A stretch of DNA of 64,000 nt from Acidiluteibacter ferrifornacis (GTDB taxonomy: Bacteria > Bacteroidota > Bacteroidia > Flavobacteriales_E > Vicingaceae), in assembly GCF_009909615.1 (NCBI RefSeq), contig NZ_WWNE01000011.1, positions 1-64,000 of the forward strand. The letters are read 5' to 3'. Position numbers and translations under genes: made by a program. Shown here piece after piece: positions 22,019-35,848 of this stretch (the first letter of the stretch is position 1; each line of letters opens with the position of its first letter). Below the pieces are notes generated by a model that worked only from the letters and a program-made list of their open reading frames with translations, made no database searches and was not told where the DNA came from.

Positions 22019-24322
22019 ATGCCGTTTAGAAATGCACTTCATCTGCACTTAATCTTTCTTTTTGCAATTATTCCCCCTCAACAGGTTTTCGGTCAGTTGG
22101 GTACCATTTCGGGAACAGTATTTCAAGAAAATGGAGAAGTTGTTCCTTTTGCAAACGTCTACCTCTCCAATACCAATTGGGGAGCCGCTAGCGACGAAAA
22201 CGGTCAATTTAAAATCAACAATATCCCTCCTGGAGAATACCAAATACATGCACAGTTTATTGGTTTCAGCCGTCAATCAAAATCCATTGCATTAAGCGAA
22301 AATCAAAATTTAACCGTCAATTTTGAACTACAATACAGCAACTTAGATCTTGAGGAAGTAGTCATTACAGGTACCATGAAAGAAATGTCCAAAAAAAATA
22401 GCCCTGTGCCTGTAGAGGTATATACTGCGAAATATTTTGCCAATAATAAAAACCCATCCGTATTTGAATCATTGCAAAATGTCAATGGAGTTCGTCCTCA
22501 ATTAAACTGTAGTGTATGCAATACTGGAGACATCCACATCAACGGATTAGAAGGCCCTTACACCATGGTCTTAATAGATGGAATGCCTATCGTTAGCGGA
22601 TTATCCACTGTTTATGGGTTGACAGGAATCCCAGCTTCACTCATCGAACAGGTGGAAATTGTAAAAGGCCCTGCTTCCACATTGTATGGCTCAGAAGCCG
22701 TAGGTGGATTGATCAATGTGATTACCAAAAAACCAAGTACAGCACCACTTTTCTCTGCAGATGTATTCACTACTTCTTGGTTAGAAACCAATGCAGACAT
22801 TGGAGCCAAATTCCATTTAGGAAAAAAAGCATCTTCCCTGCTTGGCGTCAATTACTTCAAATACAGCGATCCATTAGACCTCAACAATGATGGATTTACT
22901 GACATTACTTTGCAGGATCGAATTTCCTTGTTCAACAAGATCTCTTTTGATCGAAAAGACAACAGAATATTCAACATCGGCATGCGCTACGTTTATGAAG
23001 ACAGATGGGGTGGAGAAATGAATTGGCGCCCTGCTTTTAGAGGTGGAGATTCCATATATGGAGAAAGTATCTATACCAACCGATGGGAGGTTTTTGGCAA
23101 CTATCAACTGCCAATCGTTGATGAAAATTTCAACTTGCAATTCAGTGCCAACGGACATCACCAAAATTCAGTGTACGGAACCGATCGATACATTGCCGAT
23201 CAACGAATTGCTTTTAGCCAATTGACTTGGAATAAAAAATGGACTCCTTCCAATGATGTATTGTTAGGCGTGGCTTATCGCTATACTTACTACGACGACA
23301 ACACAGTAGCCACCTACGCCGCTGACAGCAGCAGAAACAGCCCATCCTATATTCACTTGCCAGGACTATTTATTCAAGACCAAGTAACCATCAATGAATT
23401 CAACACCCTACTTTTAGGACTGAGATACGATCACAATAACATTCATGGAAATATATTCTCCCCAAGAATCAATTATAAATGGAATTCTAAAAAGGAGAAG
23501 ACCATTATCCGCCTGAGCGCAGGAAATGGATTTCGAGTGGCCAACATCTTTACCGAAGATCATGCCGCATTAACAGGTGCGCGTGAAGTGGTTTTTACTG
23601 AAAAGCTACAGCCAGAGCAATCGGTGAATGTCAACTTAAATGTGGTTCAGAAATTTTACACCAAAAATCAGACTTACGTCAACCTAGATGGATCAATATT
23701 TTACACCTTTTTCTCTAATCGTATTGTGCCAGATTACGAAATCAATCCCAACCAAATTATTTATGCCAACCTAGATGGACAAGCCATTTCAAAAGGCGTA
23801 TCATTGAATGCCGACATCGTATGGCATAGCGGAGTAAAAATAATGGGAGGCGCCACTTTGATGGATGTAACGATAGAAGAAAACGATGGCAAACAGCGCC
23901 AATTATTAACGGAGAATTTTACAGGAGTTTGGAGTATCGAATACACCATCCTCCCCTACAACCTCACCATTAATTACACTGGAAATGTATACAGCCCTAT
24001 GCGCTTACCACTATTGGGCGACCTCGACAATCGCAGTGAATATTCTCCATGGTTTAGCATTCAAAATATACAATTGACCAAACCCATCAATGACCAATGG
24101 TCGGTTTATGGAGGAGTGAAAAACCTGCTCAATTTTACTCCTGCTAGGAATAGTATTGCTCGATCTTTCGATCCATTTGACAAAAATGTACAATTTGATG
24201 CCAATGGAAATGCCGTTCCAACTCCCGAAAATCCCAATGCGCTAACATTTGACCCTTCTTATGTGTATGCCGCCAACCAAGGGATTCGAGGATTTATCGG
24301 AATAAAATATACGTTGAAATAA
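22019..24322 (+). CDS. TonB-dependent outer-membrane receptor, probably metal-regulated
   Basis: A 767-residue receptor. A signal peptide ends near VFGQ, then comes a carboxypeptidase-D-like domain (about 28-115, GTISGTVFQENGEVVPFANVYL). The plug domain has VEVYTAKYFANN, INGLEGPYTMVLIDGMPIVSG and EIVKGPASTLYGSEAVGGLINVITKKP. The rest is a 22-strand barrel ending in GIRGFIGIKYTLK. An NCSVCNTGD pair of cysteines sits in the plug just before INGLEG, an unusual place for a CxxC and a possible ligand-contact site. It is followed after 2 bp by a thioredoxin-like gene. The two DtxR-like palindromes upstream suggest iron- or manganese-dependent control; the ligand is unknown. Confidence 0.9.
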   Translation: MPFRNALHLHLIFLFAIIPPQQVFGQLGTISGTVFQENGEVVPFANVYLSNTNWGAASDENGQFKINNIPPGEYQIHAQFIGFSRQSKSIALSENQNLTVNFELQYSNLDLEEVVITGTMKEMSKKNSPVPVEVYTAKYFANNKNPSVFESLQNVNGVRPQLNCSVCNTGDIHINGLEGPYTMVLIDGMPIVSGLSTVYGLTGIPASLIEQVEIVKGPASTLYGSEAVGGLINVITKKPSTAPLFSADVFTTSWLETNADIGAKFHLGKKASSLLGVNYFKYSDPLDLNNDGFTDITLQDRISLFNKISFDRKDNRIFNIGMRYVYEDRWGGEMNWRPAFRGGDSIYGESIYTNRWEVFGNYQLPIVDENFNLQFSANGHHQNSVYGTDRYIADQRIAFSQLTWNKKWTPSNDVLLGVAYRYTYYDDNTVATYAADSSRNSPSYIHLPGLFIQDQVTINEFNTLLLGLRYDHNNIHGNIFSPRINYKWNSKKEKTIIRLSAGNGFRVANIFTEDHAALTGAREVVFTEKLQPEQSVNVNLNVVQKFYTKNQTYVNLDGSIFYTFFSNRIVPDYEINPNQIIYANLDGQAISKGVSLNADIVWHSGVKIMGGATLMDVTIEENDGKQRQLLTENFTGVWSIEYTILPYNLTINYTGNVYSPMRLPLLGDLDNRSEYSPWFSIQNIQLTKPINDQWSVYGGVKNLLNFTPARNSIARSFDPFDKNVQFDANGNAVPTPENPNALTFDPSYVYAANQGIRGFIGIKYTLK

Positions 24323-24860: not shown

Positions 24861-25152
24861 CAATAAACAAAAAAGAGTAAATCATATTTTAGTCCCGAAC
24901 TTATCGGGATGAATCGCTTTATGCGTGAGAAAATAATTTAAATGTGCATATACATGCTAAAAGCATGGGACTTCCGAGCGATAGCGAACATACGATTCCC
25001 GAAACAATAAACAAAAAAGAGTAAATCATATTTTAGTCCCGAACCTATCGGGATGAATCGCTTTATGCGTGTGAAAATAATTTAAATGTGAACGCATATG
25101 CATGCTAAAAGCATGGGACTTCCGAGCGATAGCGAACATACGATTCCCGAAA
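24861..25152 (+). repeat. Two tandem ~146-bp units flanking the CRISPR array
   Basis: Copy 1 is 24861-25004 (144 bp) and copy 2 is 25005-25152 (148 bp); a third copy starts at 25153 and runs into the array. Each unit begins with CAATAAACAA, then an AAATCATATTTTAG segment that aligns with the CRISPR repeat 3' half (13 of 20 bases identical), a TCCCGA/TCGGGA hairpin, then TGAATCGCTTT, which equals repeat bases 5-15. Each ends with the segment from TTCCGAGCG to GAAA that is also found inside the array. They look like decayed repeat-spacer units or repeat copies interrupted by insertions. No gene is present. Confidence 0.75.
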
Positions 25153-25170
25153 CAATAAACAAGAGAGAGT
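25120..25170 (+). repeat. 51-nt segment abutting the half-repeat (outer copy)
   Basis: The sequence from TTCCGAGCG to GAGAGAGT is identical to 25567-25617, where it splits a CRISPR repeat. Here it directly precedes the 20-nt 3' half of a repeat (25171-25190). Confidence 0.85.
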
Positions 25171-28100
25171 AAATTGTAATTTAGCACAGCTGGATAGAAA
25201 TAGTAGCATCTTCACGACTTGTTGTGAATCGCTTTCAAATTGTAATTTAGCACAGCTTCAGTTATAGAAAAGCAAACCAAAGCTTTGTTGTGAATCGCTT
25301 TCAAATTGTAATTTAGCACAGCCATTAGGAAGATGAAGAGCGCAGAAGCATTGTTGTGAATCGCTTTCAAATTGTAATTTAGCACAGCTAATTTGGTTAG
25401 CCTCGTTCACAAAGGCCTGTTGTGAATCGCTTTCAAATTGTAATTTAGCACAGCCGTATCTAAATCAACAGATTCCTCTTTAGAGTTGTGAATCGCTTTC
25501 AAATTGTAATTTAGCACAGCTTTTTTAAAATTAGTTAGAACCCAATACTCGTTGTGAATCGCTTTCTTCCGAGCGATAGCGAACATACGATTCCCGAAAC
25601 AATAAACAAGAGAGAGTAAATTGTAATTTAGCACAGCTATATTCTATGCTGAAATTAGAAACATCATGTTGTGAATCGCTTTCAAATTGTAATTTAGCAC
25701 AGCTATGCATACTCGGTTTACGATGGGCTAATGGTTGTGAATCGCTTTCAAATTGTAATTTAGCACAGCCTCTTCTAAGGTTTTCAAATTCATCACTACG
25801 TTGTGAATCGCTTTCAAATTGTAATTTAGCACAGCATCTCCTCTTCAGCATTACTCATTTTACCTGTTGTGAATCGCTTTCAAATTGTAATTTAGCACAG
25901 CTGCTTCTTTTGTTGGGTTTATCCCAACTGTGTTGTGAATCGCTTTCAAATTGTAATTTAGCACAGCAAACGAAACGATTCCTTCTGGTACAGATTTGTT
26001 GTGAATCGCTTTCAAATTGTAATTTAGCACAGCATGATGTGGAATATGCAAGACCTCACAATGGTTGTGAATCGCTTTCAAATTGTAATTTAGCACAGCC
26101 GTACTCTTCATTTCTATAACATTGCTTCGTTGTGAATCGCTTTCAAATTGTAATTTAGCACAGCTTTCATTCTTCGCAAAAGGTGAAGTGCATAGTTGTG
26201 AATCGCTTTCAAATTGTAATTTAGCACAGCTGAGCGTAGCGAAGCTTTAGGCGAAGCCGTGTTGTGAATCGCTTTCAAATTGTAATTTAGCACAGCTTAC
26301 CAATTAGACAGTAAAACTGGAGTGAGTTGTGAATCGCTTTCAAATTGTAATTTAGCACAGCAGCCCAACTTAAAGCTCAACAGCAATTACTGTTGTGAAT
26401 CGCTTTCAAATTGTAATTTAGCACAGCTCTATTCTCAATTATTCTCCCCCCATTTGGTTGTGAATCGCTTTCAAATTGTAATTTAGCACAGCGTTCGAAA
26501 ATAAGCGAAATGCGTGAAGCTAGTTGTGAATCGCTTTCAAATTGTAATTTAGCACAGCTTTTTATTGATTTCTACCATGGGTTCTATAGTTGTGAATCGC
26601 TTTCAAATTGTAATTTAGCACAGCCTATGGAAATTGTAAAAGCTCGTGAGGCGAGTTGTGAATCGCTTTCAAATTGTAATTTAGCGCAGCAACGCTTACT
26701 TTAGCATCAGCAGCAGCTTTGTTGTGAATCGCTTTCAAATTGTAATTTAGCACAGCTAGGCGCTGATGCTACAGTAAACAAAACAGTTGTGAATCGCTTT
26801 CAAATTGTAATTTAGCACAGCATATACCAATAGTTGTAACAGTTAATGCAGTTGTGAATCGCTTTCAAATTGTAATTTAGCACAGCAAAAGCAAAAATGA
26901 TTGTGATGGGAACGCAGTTGTGAATCGCTTTCAAATTGTAATTTAGCACAGCTCAAGAGTCTGAAGTACCAGAAAGAGATTAGTTGTGAATCGCTTTCAA
27001 ATTGTAATTTAGCACAGCGTGATTAGAGTAATGGATTTGGCAGCATATGTTGTGAATCGCTTTCAAATTGTAATTTAGCACAGCACTTTTTGGATTGACT
27101 TATTCTGTGGAGCGGTTGTGAATCGCTTTCAAATTGTAATTTAGCACAGCTTGTTGCTTTTCGCTCAACCCTCCCGTAGTGTTGTGAATCGCTTTCAAAT
27201 TGTAATTTAGCACAGCGCGTTTTTGGAGAAACTTAAGGCGAGCACAGTTGTGAATCGCTTTCAAATTGTAATTTAGCACAGCAAACTGCTGATCGATAAA
27301 ACTCACCTTCGCGTTGTGAATCGCTTTCAAATTGTAATTTAGCACAGCGGTGCGCGCTTTCCTGCTTGGCTTCCTGCTGTTGTGAATCGCTTTCAAATTG
27401 TAATTTAGCACAGCTCCTTGGGTTGACGTAAATAATACACCTCAGTTGTGAATCGCTTTCAAATTGTAATTTAGCACAGCACCGAAAATGGTGGAATGAC
27501 TTTCGAGCCTGTTGTGAATCGCTTTCAAATTGTAATTTAGCACAGCCGGTCTAACGTAGGATAACCATTTTCTGAGGTTGTGAATCGCTTTCAAATTGTA
27601 ATTTAGCACAGCTATCCAACTTGCAATCGTAGGCAACAACGTGTTGTGAATCGCTTTCAAATTGTAATTTAGCACAGCATCAGAATCCGAAATAGTGTAC
27701 CAAGGCATGTTGTGAATCGCTTTCAAATTGTAATTTAGCACAGCGAACTTTAACGAGATTAGAACCGAAGTAAAGTTGTGAATCGCTTTCAAATTGTAAT
27801 TTAGCACAGCCTTTTCCAAATTGCTATTAAATGGAAATCTGTTGTGAATCGCTTTCAAATTGTAATTTAGCACAGCTAGTAGAAATGTATTGATCATCTA
27901 CTATTAGTTGTGAATCGCTTTCAAATTGTAATTTAGCACAGCGGTAACACCGTCTTTAACAGCCTCCGCATAGTTGTGAATCGCTTTCAAATTGTAATTT
28001 AGCACAGCTGAGGGATATGGATATCTATGCTAAATCTAGTTGTGAATCGCTTTCAAATTGTAATTTAGCACAGCTGTGGGGGTGGGGATTAAATCGTAAA

Positions 28101-30708
28101 ACATGTTGTGAATCGCTTTCAAATTGTAATTTAGCACAGCGGGGTTAAGCAAACTTACCCATACGCTCGTGTTGTGAATCGCTTTCAAATTGTAATTTAG
28201 CACAGCGGAGTATCTTGAGCCACACGACCAAATAAGTTGTGAATCGCTTTCAAATTGTAATTTAGCACAGCGAAGAATGCAGAGAAGTGCGATGAGATGC
28301 AGTTGTGAATCGCTTTCAAATTGTAATTTAGCACAGCTAGATGCAGATGTCTACCTAATAGGGATTGTTGTGAATCGCTTTCAAATTGTAATTTAGCACA
28401 GCATAAAAATAAATTATTATGGGGGGACTTTAGTTGTGAATCGCTTTCAAATTGTAATTTAGCACAGCAAAAAGGATATGACATTTACAGAAATTTTAGT
28501 TGTGAATCGCTTTCAAATTGTAATTTAGCACAGCTTCTATATTGTCAGTTGATGCAGATTCAGCGTTGTGAATCGCTTTCAAATTGTAATTTAGCACAGC
28601 TTTCAGCAAGTAGAGCAGCTTTAAAGGATTGTTGTGAATCGCTTTCAAATTGTAATTTAGCACAGCGCCGTAATCATCTACAAATGGAATGAGTGGTTGT
28701 GAATCGCTTTCAAATTGTAATTTAGCACAGCCACCACCAGAGCCAAGCGAAAAGGACACAAGTTGTGAATCGCTTTCAAATTGTAATTTAGCACAGCGGT
28801 GGTGTAGCCTTCGTCTCCACTTGCTGTGTTGTGAATCGCTTTCAAATTGTAATTTAGCACAGCTTGTTGTAAATCGACCGCCTTTTTTAACGAGTTGTGA
28901 ATCGCTTTCAAATTGTAATTTAACACAGCACTCAAAAATATATCACTTTGGCGTTTCCGGTTGTGAATCGCTTTCAAATTGTAATTTAGCACAGCTAAAG
29001 AATTTGATTTAAACTTAGTTTGGGTGTTGTGAATCGCTTTCAAATTGTAATTTAGCACAGCGGTCTGAATCTAGTTGGATAGACGACTTGAGTTGTGAAT
29101 CGCTTTCAAATTGTAATTTAGCACAGCCACCACCTCCGATTTAGGGAAAAGAACTTTGTTGTGAATCGCTTTCAAATTGTAATTTAGCACAGCTTATCTT
29201 CAGCAAAAAAAACACTACCGTCGTTGTGAATCGCTTTCAAATTGTAATTTAGCACAGCTTTGGTAGAGCTGGCAAAACAGCCATTTAGGTTGTGAATCGC
29301 TTTCAAATTGTAATTTAGCACAGCACCAACGGAAGTGTGGGTTTAGCGAGATTGTTGTGAATCGCTTTCAAATTGTAATTTAGCACAGCTTCAAAGAAAC
29401 AGCAACTGGAAAAATATTAGTTGTGAATCGCTTTCAAATTGTAATTTAGCACAGCTTTTACGTGCTGAATATCAGTTCCTACTTTGTTGTGAATCGCTTT
29501 CAAATTGTAATTTAGCACAGCAAGGCAACAGAAACATATCAGTAAACGAAGTTGTGAATCGCTTTCAAATTGTAATTTAGCACAGCGTATCCCAACTGTA
29601 CTTCCACTCAAACATTGTTGTGAATCGCTTTCAAATTGTAATTTAGCACAGCAACACTCAATTAGTTGACGGTTGCCACATAGTTGTGAATCGCTTTCAA
29701 ATTGTAATTTAGCACAGCTAATGCAACGGTATTAGCACCAATAGCAATGTTGTGAATCGCTTTCAAATTGTAATTTAGCACAGCCGAAAAGACTGAGAAA
29801 GCAATCGCAGATCAGTTGTGAATCGCTTTCAAATTGTAATTTAGCACAGCGAATCTATCGGGCAACATTGACCCAACAATGTTGTGAATCGCTTTCAAAT
29901 TGTAATTTAGCACAGCAGAATTACTAGAGCAAAGAGATGAGTTATTGTTGTGAATCGCTTTCAAATTGTAATTTAGCACAGCACATTCAAGGACTTATTC
30001 GATAAGGAGTACGTTGTGAATCGCTTTCAAATTGTAATTTAGCACAGCAGAATGCGCCGATATGTGCTACGGTAGAATGTTGTGAATCGCTTTCAAATTG
30101 TAATTTAGCACAGCTCCTTAGTTATCTTCAACCCATAAGGCAAGGTTGTGAATCGCTTTCAAATTGTAATTTAGCACAGCGCCCATTAACAAATCTGTGC
30201 CAATGGATATGTTGTGAATCGCTTTCAAATTGTAATTTAGCACAGCAGCATGGCTGTATGGTTGAAGTGGTCGCAAGTTGTGAATCGCTTTCAAATTGTA
30301 ATTTAGCACAGCCGGAATAATAAAGGCTTGTACAACTTGCAAGTTGTGAATCGCTTTCAAATTGTAATTTAGCACAGCGTTGGGAATGAATTGAGCTACA
30401 TCAGCAATGTTGTGAATCGCTTTCAAATTGTAATTTAGCACAGCATAAAGTTTTGTTTGTTAGTGGTTTAATAAGTTGTGAATCGCTTTCAAATTGTAAT
30501 TTAGCACAGCATCTGAAAAAGTAGCAGATCAATTAAAACAGTTGTGAATCGCTTTCAAATTGTAATTTAGCACAGCCACCATTGGACAACGTTTAATATA
30601 CGAGAGGTTGTGAATCGCTTTCAAATTGTAATTTAGCACAGCATCCCCGATGATGTTTTCTCTAGCATCCCAGTTGTGAATCGCTTTCAAATTGTAATTT
30701 AGCACAGC
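25171..30708 (+). CRISPR. Type II-C CRISPR array, 84 repeats and 83 spacers
   Basis: The repeat is 36 nt: GTTGTGAATCGCTTTC followed by AAATTGTAATTTAGCACAGC. I count 84 repeat units: a 3' half only (25171-25190), one repeat split by a 51-nt insert (25551-25637) and 82 full copies, of which only two have a base change (26655-26690, A to G at position 32; 28894-28929, G to A at position 30). Of 83 spacers, 72 are 30 nt and 11 are 29 nt, and none was seen twice. Pairing with the tracrRNA shows that crRNAs are read on the plus strand, towards cas2. Degenerate units at the 5' end mark the old end; the 3' end is intact and abuts a terminator hairpin. Long open frames through the array are only translations of the repeat. 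Confidence 0.98.
25551..25637 (+). repeat. CRISPR repeat split by a 51-nt insert
   Basis: Bases 25551-25566 are repeat positions 1-16, 25567-25617 are the insert, and 25618-25637 are repeat positions 17-36. No repeat base is lost or duplicated. The insert is identical to 25120-25170. The spacers after the two copies differ, so this is not a simple recent tandem duplication. Confidence 0.9.
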
Positions 30709-30733
30709 AACCCCTGCAATAAGGGGTTGTTTT
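30709..30733 (+). terminator. Terminator hairpin directly after the last CRISPR repeat
   Basis: AACCCCT (30709-30715) pairs with AGGGGTT (30722-30728) around GCAATA, followed by GTTTT. It starts at the base after the last repeat and would stop array transcripts before the convergent cas2. There is no T-run on the minus strand, so it is not a terminator for the cas operon. Confidence 0.7.
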
Positions 30734-30800
30734 GATGCTATTTAAGGCTCTATTTTTGACTTCAGAATTATAAAACTATCTCAATTTTTCGACCTTCCAC

Positions 30801-31145
30801 TCAAAAAAGTTCTAATTGTTGATGTGTTTCTGGTAATGCTTCTTTTTGTTGGGATAAATAAACTTCCATCATTCCGAATTGCTTATCGGTAAGGTGCAAA
30901 ATACAGACGTGGCCTTTGGGTGGCAAGTTTTTCTTCGTTCGTTTAATGTGTACTTGTGCGTTTTCCATGCTCGGACAGTGCCGCATAAAGATACTCCATT
31001 GAAAACGCGTAAAACCATCCTCTTCCAGCTGCTTCACAAATTTTCGATAATTGCGTGTATCGGTTTTGGTTTGTGTTGGAAGGTCAAAAAAAACAATTAC
31101 CCACATGATGCGATATTGATTAAAACGACTGCTCAAATTTCCCAT
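30801..31145 (-). CDS. cas2: CRISPR-associated endonuclease Cas2
   Basis: A 114-residue protein when started at ATG 31145. The frame is open to 31184, but related II-C Cas2 proteins begin about ten residues before the YRIMW motif, and MGNLSSRFNQYRIMW fits that. The first strand ends in VIVFFDLP with the conserved Asp; RHCPSMENAQVHIKR and HVCILHLTDKQFG follow. Cas2 forms the core of the Cas1-Cas2 integrase. It overlaps the end of cas1 by 13 bp and is the last gene of the cas9-cas1-cas2 operon. Confidence 0.93.
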   Translation of the reverse strand: MGNLSSRFNQYRIMWVIVFFDLPTQTKTDTRNYRKFVKQLEEDGFTRFQWSIFMRHCPSMENAQVHIKRTKKNLPPKGHVCILHLTDKQFGMMEVYLSQQKEALPETHQQLELF

Positions 31146-32035
31146 ACCGGAAGTTTCAGTTTCTTCCGCTCTTTCAAATAGCATGCCGCTAATGAAGCAG
31201 TAGTTTGCTGAACGGCCAACATCAATGGTTTTCTTTTTTGATTAATAATAACATCTAAAGTAGGGATAGTCAATAAAATACTTTTAATGTCCCAAGTAAG
31301 TTCTACTTCGCCTTCCTCATCTTCTAAAATTTTAAGCACTAATTGGTCTACATAAGGACGGTAAGGCTCCATGATATCATCCGCTAAACAATAGGCATTG
31401 TATTTATTGTGATGATGGATACCCAGTGAAGGATGCAAGCCCGACCCTACTAATGAGCGAGCTACAACAGCTCGCAAAATGGCATACCCATAATTTAAGA
31501 GAGAATTGGGAGCTGCTTCAAACCGTCCTCTTGTAAAACCTTCTATATAATCCACAAATACGGTTTTCCAATAATGAGCTGCGGCTCTTCCCTCATAATT
31601 ATCGGGATCTCCGTTTTTTACTTGACTCGCCCAGTAGTTCATGTTCTCAATAGAAGCACCAGTTAGTTTTAGAACAGCTGCTTGATTGTATATTTTTTGC
31701 TGTATCACTGTTTTCCATATTCGGTCTTTGAGTGCAGCGCTTGCTTCAATTTGCGCTGCTAATTGAGCTTGTTGGGTATGGTGCCCATCTAAATTCAACA
31801 TCAATCCCTGTGGTAGATGTCGTTCATTGCAAGTAATCAGCGCTACATTGTAGTCTAATAATTTACTGATTAATGGTTGGGTAATCGTAATCTGAGGATG
31901 GTCTAAAAAAACGATTCCTAAATCTTCTATTGGTACAGTCTTAGCTTCTTCCACCTTGGGATAATTGACCACCAGTTGTTGCTTATTCATGGATAAATAG
32001 GCCGGGTTACCAAAATATACCGTTCGTTTAATCAT
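31133..32035 (-). CDS. cas1: CRISPR-associated integrase Cas1 (type II)
   Basis: A 300-residue protein of normal type II Cas1 length. N-terminal beta domain starts MIKRTVYFGNPAYLS. The alpha domain contains the metal ligands: Glu148 in NYEGRAAAHYW, His near 207 in GLHPSLGIHH and Glu223 in ADDIMEPYRP. With Cas2 it inserts new spacers at the leader end of the array. A 131-bp gap with a palindromic element separates it from cas9. Confidence 0.96.
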   Translation of the reverse strand: MIKRTVYFGNPAYLSMNKQQLVVNYPKVEEAKTVPIEDLGIVFLDHPQITITQPLISKLLDYNVALITCNERHLPQGLMLNLDGHHTQQAQLAAQIEASAALKDRIWKTVIQQKIYNQAAVLKLTGASIENMNYWASQVKNGDPDNYEGRAAAHYWKTVFVDYIEGFTRGRFEAAPNSLLNYGYAILRAVVARSLVGSGLHPSLGIHHHNKYNAYCLADDIMEPYRPYVDQLVLKILEDEEGEVELTWDIKSILLTIPTLDVIINQKRKPLMLAVQQTTASLAACYLKERKKLKLPVWEI

Positions 32036-35742: not shown

Positions 35743-35770
35743 TTGTATAATTTTTTTGTTATTTTTACTT

Positions 35771-35848
35771 CACAATTTGAAAGCGATTCACAATAAGGAT
35801 TATTCCGTTGTGAAAACATTTAAGGCGGGGCAACTCGCCTTTTTTTTA
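35771..35848 (+). ncRNA. tracrRNA
   Basis: Bases 35772-35793 are a perfect 22-nt complement of CRISPR repeat positions 2-23. A nexus-like small hairpin follows (GGATTATTCC, 35798-35807), then a linker and a final hairpin AAGGCG (35822-35827) with CGCCTT (35836-35841) leading into a run of eight T. This order (anti-repeat, nexus, terminator hairpin) is that of type II tracrRNAs. The T-run fixes transcription on the plus strand, so the crRNA is also the plus-strand transcript of the array. A weak promoter candidate is TATTTTTA (35760-35767). The exact 5' end is not known. Confidence 0.9.

Follow-up and report, generated by a model that had tools for sequence, protein, structure and literature searches.

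We found that the repeats of a type II-C array of clustered regularly interspaced short palindromic repeats (CRISPR) in Acidiluteibacter ferrifornacis probably each carry the −7 box of Bacteroidota promoters, so that every guide would be started singly; we put the probability of this reading at roughly 70%. The array lies in the first 64,000 nucleotides (nt) of contig NZ_WWNE01000011.1, the stretch analyzed here and called the window. Its 36-nt repeat holds TAATTTAG at positions 23–30, and the initial annotation, made from the sequence alone, was right that this segment is conserved in nearly all 82 full repeats: it is intact in 81. Measured against TAnnTTTG, the −7 box of sigma-ABfr, TAATTTAG matches at five of the six specified positions, the seventh letter being A for T. 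Eighty of the 82 full repeats are identical, and the other two have a single change each (A32G at 26655 and, within the box, G30A at 28894). Repeats start 66 nt apart in 69 cases, 65 nt in 11, and 183 nt in one.

This genome uses TAnnTTTG as its promoter box. We scored 423 upstream regions from 964 kb of the genome and counted 93 copies 15–65 nt before ATG (a range picked after an earlier count), versus 27 antisense copies and an off-peak expectation of 21.6. The variants ending in TTCG, TTTA, and TTGG occurred 19, 77, and 15 times versus 5.2, 40.6, and 7.9 off-peak. As a promoter box, the window's own variant, TAATTTAG, appears plausible but not strong. Letter shuffles of one repeat reached a match of 5/6 or better with a frequency of 0.11 at starts 20–28 and of 0.33 anywhere on the strand; the window box on its own does not convincingly exceed chance, but the comparative set does. 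The Bacteroidota promoter consensus was deduced in Bacteroides fragilis (PMC7366714).

The Box Recurs in Bacteroidota Repeats

The initial annotation had suggested a comparison with other Bacteroidota II-C repeats, and the outcome agrees with its proposal. At starts 20–28, TAnnTTTG matched at 5/6 or better in 25 of 33 Bacteroidota clusters (shuffle mean 5.43, maximum 14) and exactly in 9 (shuffle mean 0.48, maximum 4). In other phyla, 1 of 20 clusters reached 5/6 and none matched exactly; 19 of these 20 had a sigma70-like TAnnnT at positions 31–36, versus 4 of the 33 Bacteroidota clusters. Counted by arrays, the box was present in 32/35 Bacteroidia, 10/20 from other Bacteroidota classes, and 2/36 from other phyla, and TAnnnT in 0/35, 10/20, and 33/36, respectively. 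The window repeat, which ends in CACAGC, likewise has no sigma70 −10 (TAnnnT) at its end.

These counts rest on 55 Bacteroidota arrays, grouped at 75% identity into 33 clusters, and 36 arrays from other phyla in 20 clusters. The window's Cas9 served as query against two overlapping draws, 395 genomes from the phylum and 395 from the class, and matched in 39 and 51 of them. Besides the window, 37 of the 39 matching genomes were fetched (G340 was left out), as were 40 of 45 new matching genomes (G412, G492, G682, G715, and G723 were left out); for named genomes, a single scan with Cas9 alignment supplied the best 80 of 504 loci. Five of the 37 genomes, 28 of the 80 named loci, and 19 of the 40 genomes were without an array. 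Arrays were detected by script and each oriented against cas9. We dropped repeats shorter than 28 nt (L074, L081, L137, L148, and L152) and two doubtful ones (L205 and L129), took the class of six named Bacteroidota loci from their titles, and restored for numbering five 5′ bases of the L170 repeat that the detector had missed and that agree with the DNA. Shuffles were dinucleotide shuffles of the repeat part after position 16, in 2000 rounds.

The pattern was stable at clustering cut-offs from 0.6 to 0.95. A motif-free count gave TANNTTTG as the commonest word of the form XXNNXXXX in the 3′ parts of repeats (10 of 33 clusters), and this word ranked best among 30 arrangements of its letters. 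When 30 clusters were anchored on their best box, the box started at 23 or 24 in 17 and within 20–28 in the rest; T5 and T6 were invariant, T1 and G8 well conserved, and the flanks variable, a view that anchoring on the box itself favors and that shows no such dip when the 5′ end is the anchor. Between the sister loci L069 and L070 (TAATTTTG versus TAGATTTG), the two free positions differ and the rest is kept. On its guide strand, the B. fragilis II-C repeat has an exact box, TATCTTTG, at 24–31 (sequence from PMC9367070; positions counted by hand).

Repeat homogenization alone, which the initial annotation had allowed as an explanation of the conserved segment, is a process within one array and fails for a box common to clusters that differ around it. 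Shared descent may explain the box in part. Mapped on a Cas9 tree, the types of box form clusters and require five changes or more, so that shared descent contributes.

Truncated Oldest Repeats Mostly Keep the Box

The oldest unit of an array needs a promoter but no half for pairing with the trans-activating CRISPR RNA (tracrRNA), which makes truncated oldest units a natural experiment on the two halves of the repeat. The window has such a unit, a half-repeat comprising positions 17–36, and its seventh repeat is split into 1–16 and 17–36, both as initially described; between the split halves lies a 51-nt piece shared with the left flank of the array. The accompanying claim that these two units are inactive is probably wrong, as both keep the box half (Table 1). 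The half-repeat is probably the promoter of spacer 1.

We assessed the oldest unit in 41 Bacteroidota arrays and 26 arrays from other phyla, the remaining 14 of 55 and 10 of 36 lying at contig edges. Among the 41, the 5′ part was lost and the 3′ part kept in 12, the reverse held in none, both parts were partly kept in 6, and 23 had no partial unit; the corresponding numbers for the 26 were 5, 0, 3, and 18. With about one mismatch in ten allowed, the unit was kept from a point within repeat positions 1–17 in 17 of the 41 Bacteroidota arrays, including the window (from 17), and was cut at or past the box in two, L178 (from 25) and L047 (from 37). The other 22 keep at most 6 nt; in four of these (L043, L068, L166, and L182), the first full copy carries three to four changes within its first 9 nt, to which L043 adds a further change at the last base. 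Under uniform cuts, 17 of 19 would be expected about 5 times in 100,000 (a hand estimate; the arrays are not independent). For II-C arrays generally, changes in the oldest repeat have been found to cluster in the first 15 nt, and promoter retention has been offered as a reason (Feussner 2025, PMC12080349).

A Predicted Start at the Repeat–Spacer Border

The anti-repeat upstream of cas9 pairs with the repeat and thereby fixes the guide strand of the array as +. In the window, it pairs with repeat positions 2–23 without a mismatch, the predicted tracrRNA start (35772) coincides with the start of pairing, and seven of the eight box positions lie outside the duplex. Six relatives (L068, L120, L124, L125, L170, and L172) have an exact box that starts 10–12 nt before an anti-repeat whose pairing reaches repeat positions 23–26; in these loci and in the window, the repeat box begins at about the end of the duplex. 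With the anti-repeat taken as an exact match of at least 12 nt near the cas9 start, an exact TAnnTTTG lies at most 45 nt before it in 26 of the 43 Bacteroidota loci that have one (a count without shuffle control). From this placement, the box signal of the repeats seems to drive the neighboring tracrRNA as well.

In the mechanism that we propose, the Bacteroidota primary sigma factor would recognize the −7 box (TAnnTTTG; here, the weaker TAATTTAG) at positions 23–30 and recruit a start at each repeat. The box has been placed at −12 to −5 (Guerin 2021, PMC9723704), and thus, +1 is predicted at repeat nt 35, so that the guide would contain the complete spacer; this fits the start given in the initial annotation, at the last repeat base or the first bases of the spacer. 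Transcription would begin near nt 35, and each transcript would consist of one or two repeat bases, all 30 nt of the spacer, and the following repeat. The first 23 nt of that repeat would pair with tracrRNA to form a duplex cut by ribonuclease III (RNase III). The 5′ half of a repeat would serve tracrRNA pairing for the preceding spacer, and the 3′ half would be the promoter for the following one. The oldest half-repeat, being the promoter half only, would start spacer 1 and could not yield a useless guide. For repeats of 46/47 nt, the predicted +1 is close to nt 36, and the roughly 11 repeat bases that precede the spacer would have to be trimmed or tolerated.

We also lean, with slightly less assurance, toward a wider proposal, namely that II-C repeats coevolve with the primary sigma factor of the host. 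Bacteroidia would have swapped the sigma70 −10 at the repeat end for an inner TAnnTTTG, with the duplex ending at about the box start in the window's group; repeats would be split-function modules that tag one guide and promote the next; and a locus transferred to another phylum would not be expressed before its repeat had changed.

Observations That Weigh Against Repeat Promoters

Several observations, gathered in this section, speak against promoters in the repeats or narrow their reach. Before genes, TAnnTTAG, the form found in the window, shows only modest enrichment (26 copies versus 19 antisense and 15.7 off-peak). The box is lacking in 3 of the 35 Bacteroidia arrays (L043, L181, and L201) and in 10 of the 20 from other Bacteroidota classes. 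Most Bacteroidota loci come from one Cas9 query, and their repeats share descent. Truncation from outside takes the 5′ half first by geometry, leaving only the stopping point informative. In four loci of a shorter-Cas9 group (L053, L055, L059, and L061), most or all of the box lies within the longest anti-repeat match, and pairing could therefore conserve it there; the match takes in part of the box in L063 of that group and in L044. The inclusion of the box in the pairing of some relatives slightly lowers our confidence in reading repeats as promoters and in the wider proposal. For Riemerella, a published study reports that no promoter was found in the repeats (PMC5006608).

The proposed −33 element fared worse than the box. 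The initial annotation had paired the box with a TTG 18 nt upstream, and TTG is indeed present at positions 2–4 in 82/82 repeats, with 18 nt separating it from TAATTTAG. However, we found no −33 signal with the box in this genome: TTG shows no preferred spacing before 98 of its boxes (3 at gap 18; across gaps 10–25, the largest count was 6, with 2.3 expected). TTG at 2–4 is shared by 32 of 33 Bacteroidota clusters and also by 10 of 20 clusters from other phyla, TTG at 8–11 by 26 of 33 and 15 of 20, and TTG is gone from its place in each of the 12 oldest repeats cut back to their 3′ part. The TTG at 2–4 is present with no sign of function. Of the repeat-embedded Bacteroidota promoter first proposed, comparison supports the −7 box but not the −33 part; the strength of the window's own variant is uncertain, and the rule is unclear outside Bacteroidia.

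A host-consensus test compared the box before ATGAAA with the reversed box in 32 genomes (sums made by hand). Nine Bacteroidia genomes together gave 1696/977, eight of the nine at 1.25 or above and G188 at 100/107. Enrichment was absent from five genomes with TAGATT-ending repeats (group f25; 463/463) and from three with GATCTTTG repeats (f26; 47/48), and it was present in G025 (166/117), whose TACATT-ending repeat has no box. In f25, TTGACA-N16-18-TANAAT was not enriched either (24 versus 47 reversed), and an exact box precedes the tracrRNA by 12 nt in L051 and L056 and by 40 nt in L052. The f29 genomes gave 8/1 (G045), 16/12 (G249), and 115/91 (G214), and further genomes gave 59/39 (G081), 20/25 (G290), 88/68 (G008), 401/173 (G111), 171/142 (G363), 225/194 (G226), and 188/88 (G351). 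Values for the genomes of loci from other phyla were 62/58 (G731), 1/0 (G732), 60/68 (G733), and 5/9 (G734). A mixed set of other Bacteroidota loci was weakly enriched (45 sense versus 37 antisense), small sets were uninformative, and a stricter pattern was too rare to use. Because f25 is unenriched but has boxed tracrRNAs and G025 is enriched without a box, we do not take the test to prove a dependence of repeat type on the host. Outside Bacteroidia, repeat type and host consensus do not match cleanly.

Eight loci forming one cluster were set apart as co-directional, their repeat, read against cas9, beginning with AATAT (L065, L066, L071, L088, L096, L109, L113, and L200; Flavobacterium and Polaribacter are included). 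The repeat end is GATATT, and the box is absent from seven of the eight. A leader promoter was expected for these arrays; an exact box within 300 nt upstream occurs in just 2/8, about 200 nt away, and hence, they form a weak control. This lineage may have another mode of expression.

Alternative Explanations

A single promoter outside the array is ordinary in types I and II-A. Here, it would lie at the oldest end and produce a long precursor cut by RNase III, with the box irrelevant. Two copies of the variant TATTTTAG precede the array (in 24880–24900 and 25025–25040), the co-directional relatives without the box suggest that other modes exist, and the Riemerella authors favored leader promoters (PMC5006608). 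However, the + strand has no exact TAnnTTTG between 21997 and the array, and an exact box lies 90–300 nt upstream of the detected array in only 4 of 40 facing-array loci (43 rows, of which three repeat a locus already counted; no control was run). Moreover, a leader on the cas2 side would be at the wrong end for the CRISPR RNA (crRNA) strand set by the anti-repeat, and the class-specific box would be left unexplained. We regard an outside promoter as unlikely.

Integrases of other types read motifs inside the repeat. The 3′ element might similarly be a docking or ruler motif for Cas1–Cas2, or else a constraint from tracrRNA pairing, its likeness to a promoter being due to descent or chance. 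A box start mostly at 23–24 in both 36-nt and 46/47-nt repeats fits this account, as does the box within the anti-repeat pairing in the four shorter-Cas9 loci named above. Nevertheless, the motif is identical to the promoter box of the host, and in other phyla, a sigma70-like −10 occupies a different place in the repeat; in the window and many relatives, the longest pairing ends at or before the box; and the repeat variants TTAG, TTCG, and TTTA are among those enriched before genes, although GATCTTTG and TTTCTTTG, also found in repeats, are not clearly so. The box also survives in the oldest unit, which is not a spacer insertion site (PMC6008519, PMC12080349). Docking or pairing as the reason for the motif is, in our judgment, decidedly improbable.

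Least probable is that the window box has decayed and is now weak or dead, so that this array would depend on few active units or on read-through although repeats of the family are promoters: the enrichment of TAnnTTAG is modest and the repeat at 28894 has lost the final G too, yet TTAG recurs in the repeats of L038, L039, L044, L102, L171, and L182, and L171, from a genome of the same family with a different Cas9, keeps the repeat at 35/36.

Relation to Known Systems

Repeat-embedded promoters were reportedly described by Zhang in 2013 in a Neisseria meningitidis II-C array. Like arrays of the Neisseria/Campylobacter kind, the window array has a host box in the 3′ part of its repeat, here, a 5/6 variant of the Bacteroidota box. 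The N. meningitidis array is cited as having repeat-embedded promoters and no identifiable leader promoter (as cited in PMC5006608 and PMC7038990); its extended −10 differs in lying within the last nine repeat bases (as told in PMC7038990). For Campylobacter jejuni type II, repeat promoters were shown by differential RNA sequencing starts for crRNAs (Dugar 2013, PMC3656092). That system shares with ours tracrRNA, RNase III, and the placement of a box in the 3′ portion of each repeat; it has a −10 box, whereas the Bacteroidota −7 box lies mostly at 23–24, with a start predicted near the repeat–spacer border in 36-nt repeats.

The II-C systems of Flavobacterium columnare and Flavobacterium psychrophilum (Hoikkala 2021, PMC8092290; Li 2023, PMC10309648) belong to the same class as the window, and their authors proposed repeat-encoded promoters with transcription toward the variable end. 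In the available text of these two papers, the repeat promoter is drawn from TTG (−33) alone, with 8 reads in F. columnare, and TAnnTTTG is applied to cas9, not to the repeat. In the sections consulted of Feussner 2025 (PMC12080349), no Bacteroidota box is mentioned, and the strings "bacteroid" and "flavobact" are absent from its main text. Repeat promoters in II-C arrays and the Flavobacterium proposal from TTG are thus known; in the literature searched, mostly without subscription papers, we found no statement placing or naming the Bacteroidota −7 box in II-C repeats.

If repeats are promoters in this way, each Bacteroidia II-C guide would be expressed singly, old spacers distant from the leader included, and expression would depend less on how long the array is and how old the spacer than it does in leader-driven arrays. 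Such promoters could explain why predictors built for other bacteria miss these repeats, and the arrays would be predicted to give few guides in Escherichia coli without added promoters. The 3′ half of the repeat would then be a marker of the promoter type of a lineage.

The Window Locus

The locus (Table 1) has the composition of type II-C: cas9, cas1, and cas2 without csn2 or cas4; a tracrRNA with an anti-repeat near cas9; and an array read on the + strand toward cas2, opposite the cas genes. On the cas strand, we found no extra open reading frame of at least 90 amino acids (aa) from cas9 to the array (flanking frames were inspected by eye only). A search of Rfam gave one match, below its threshold.

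Table 1. Features of the II-C locus, in window coordinates
Feature	Position	Strand	Remarks
Oldest unit, half-repeat (repeat 17–36)	25171–25190	+	Box kept at 25177–25184; most of the tracrRNA-pairing half gone
CRISPR array	25221–30708	+	82 full 36-nt repeats
Split (seventh) repeat, 5′ half (1–16)	25551–25566	+	Would tag the preceding spacer for tracrRNA pairing
Split (seventh) repeat, 3′ half (17–36)	25618–25637	+	Box at 25624–25631; would start the next crRNA
Terminator-like hairpin	30709–30735	+ (array strand)	AACCCC..GGGGTT, then TTGTTTT; adjoins the last repeat
cas2	30801–31184	−	TIGR01573
cas1, type II	31133–32035	−	TIGR03639
cas9, 1191 aa	32167–35742	−	TIGR01865
Candidate −7 box of tracrRNA, TATTTTTA	35760–35767	+	5/6 match, TTTA variant; predicted +1 at 35772
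tracrRNA	35772–35848	+	Anti-repeat; the hairpins downstream of it end in GGCGGGGCAACTCGCC plus a T run

Among the loci compared, the window Cas9 is closest to those of L166, L167, and L120 (60–62%). The window's cas1 (68%), cas2 (80%), repeat (35/36), tracrRNA, and leader hairpin are closest to those of L171, the Cas9 of which is only 36% identical to that of the window. In the window locus, cas9 alone seems to have been exchanged. Exchange of cas9 alone has been reported for Fp2Cas9 of F. psychrophilum (PMC10309648).

Beyond the cas2-side end of the array, L042, L044, L046, L068, L171, L097, L106, and L133 also have a hairpin, which in some cases carries a T run; the shuffle control covered the window hairpin only. 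In L171, it occupies the same place as in the window and reads AGCCCTC..GGGGGCT, then G and TTTTT. A terminator fixed beside the newest repeat would shield cas2 from array transcripts. The leader palindrome of Riemerella (PMC5006608) looks like the same element.

A unit of ∼144–148 bp occurs twice before the array (24861–25184), and part of it recurs inside the split repeat (25567–25631). It shares TGAATCGCTTT with the repeats and has no other match in the assembly at an expect (E) value of 0.001. Elsewhere, the 140-kb Phocaeicola massiliensis plasmid OY726067.1 carries repeats like those of the B. fragilis II-C system at 23205–23249 and in seven more places.

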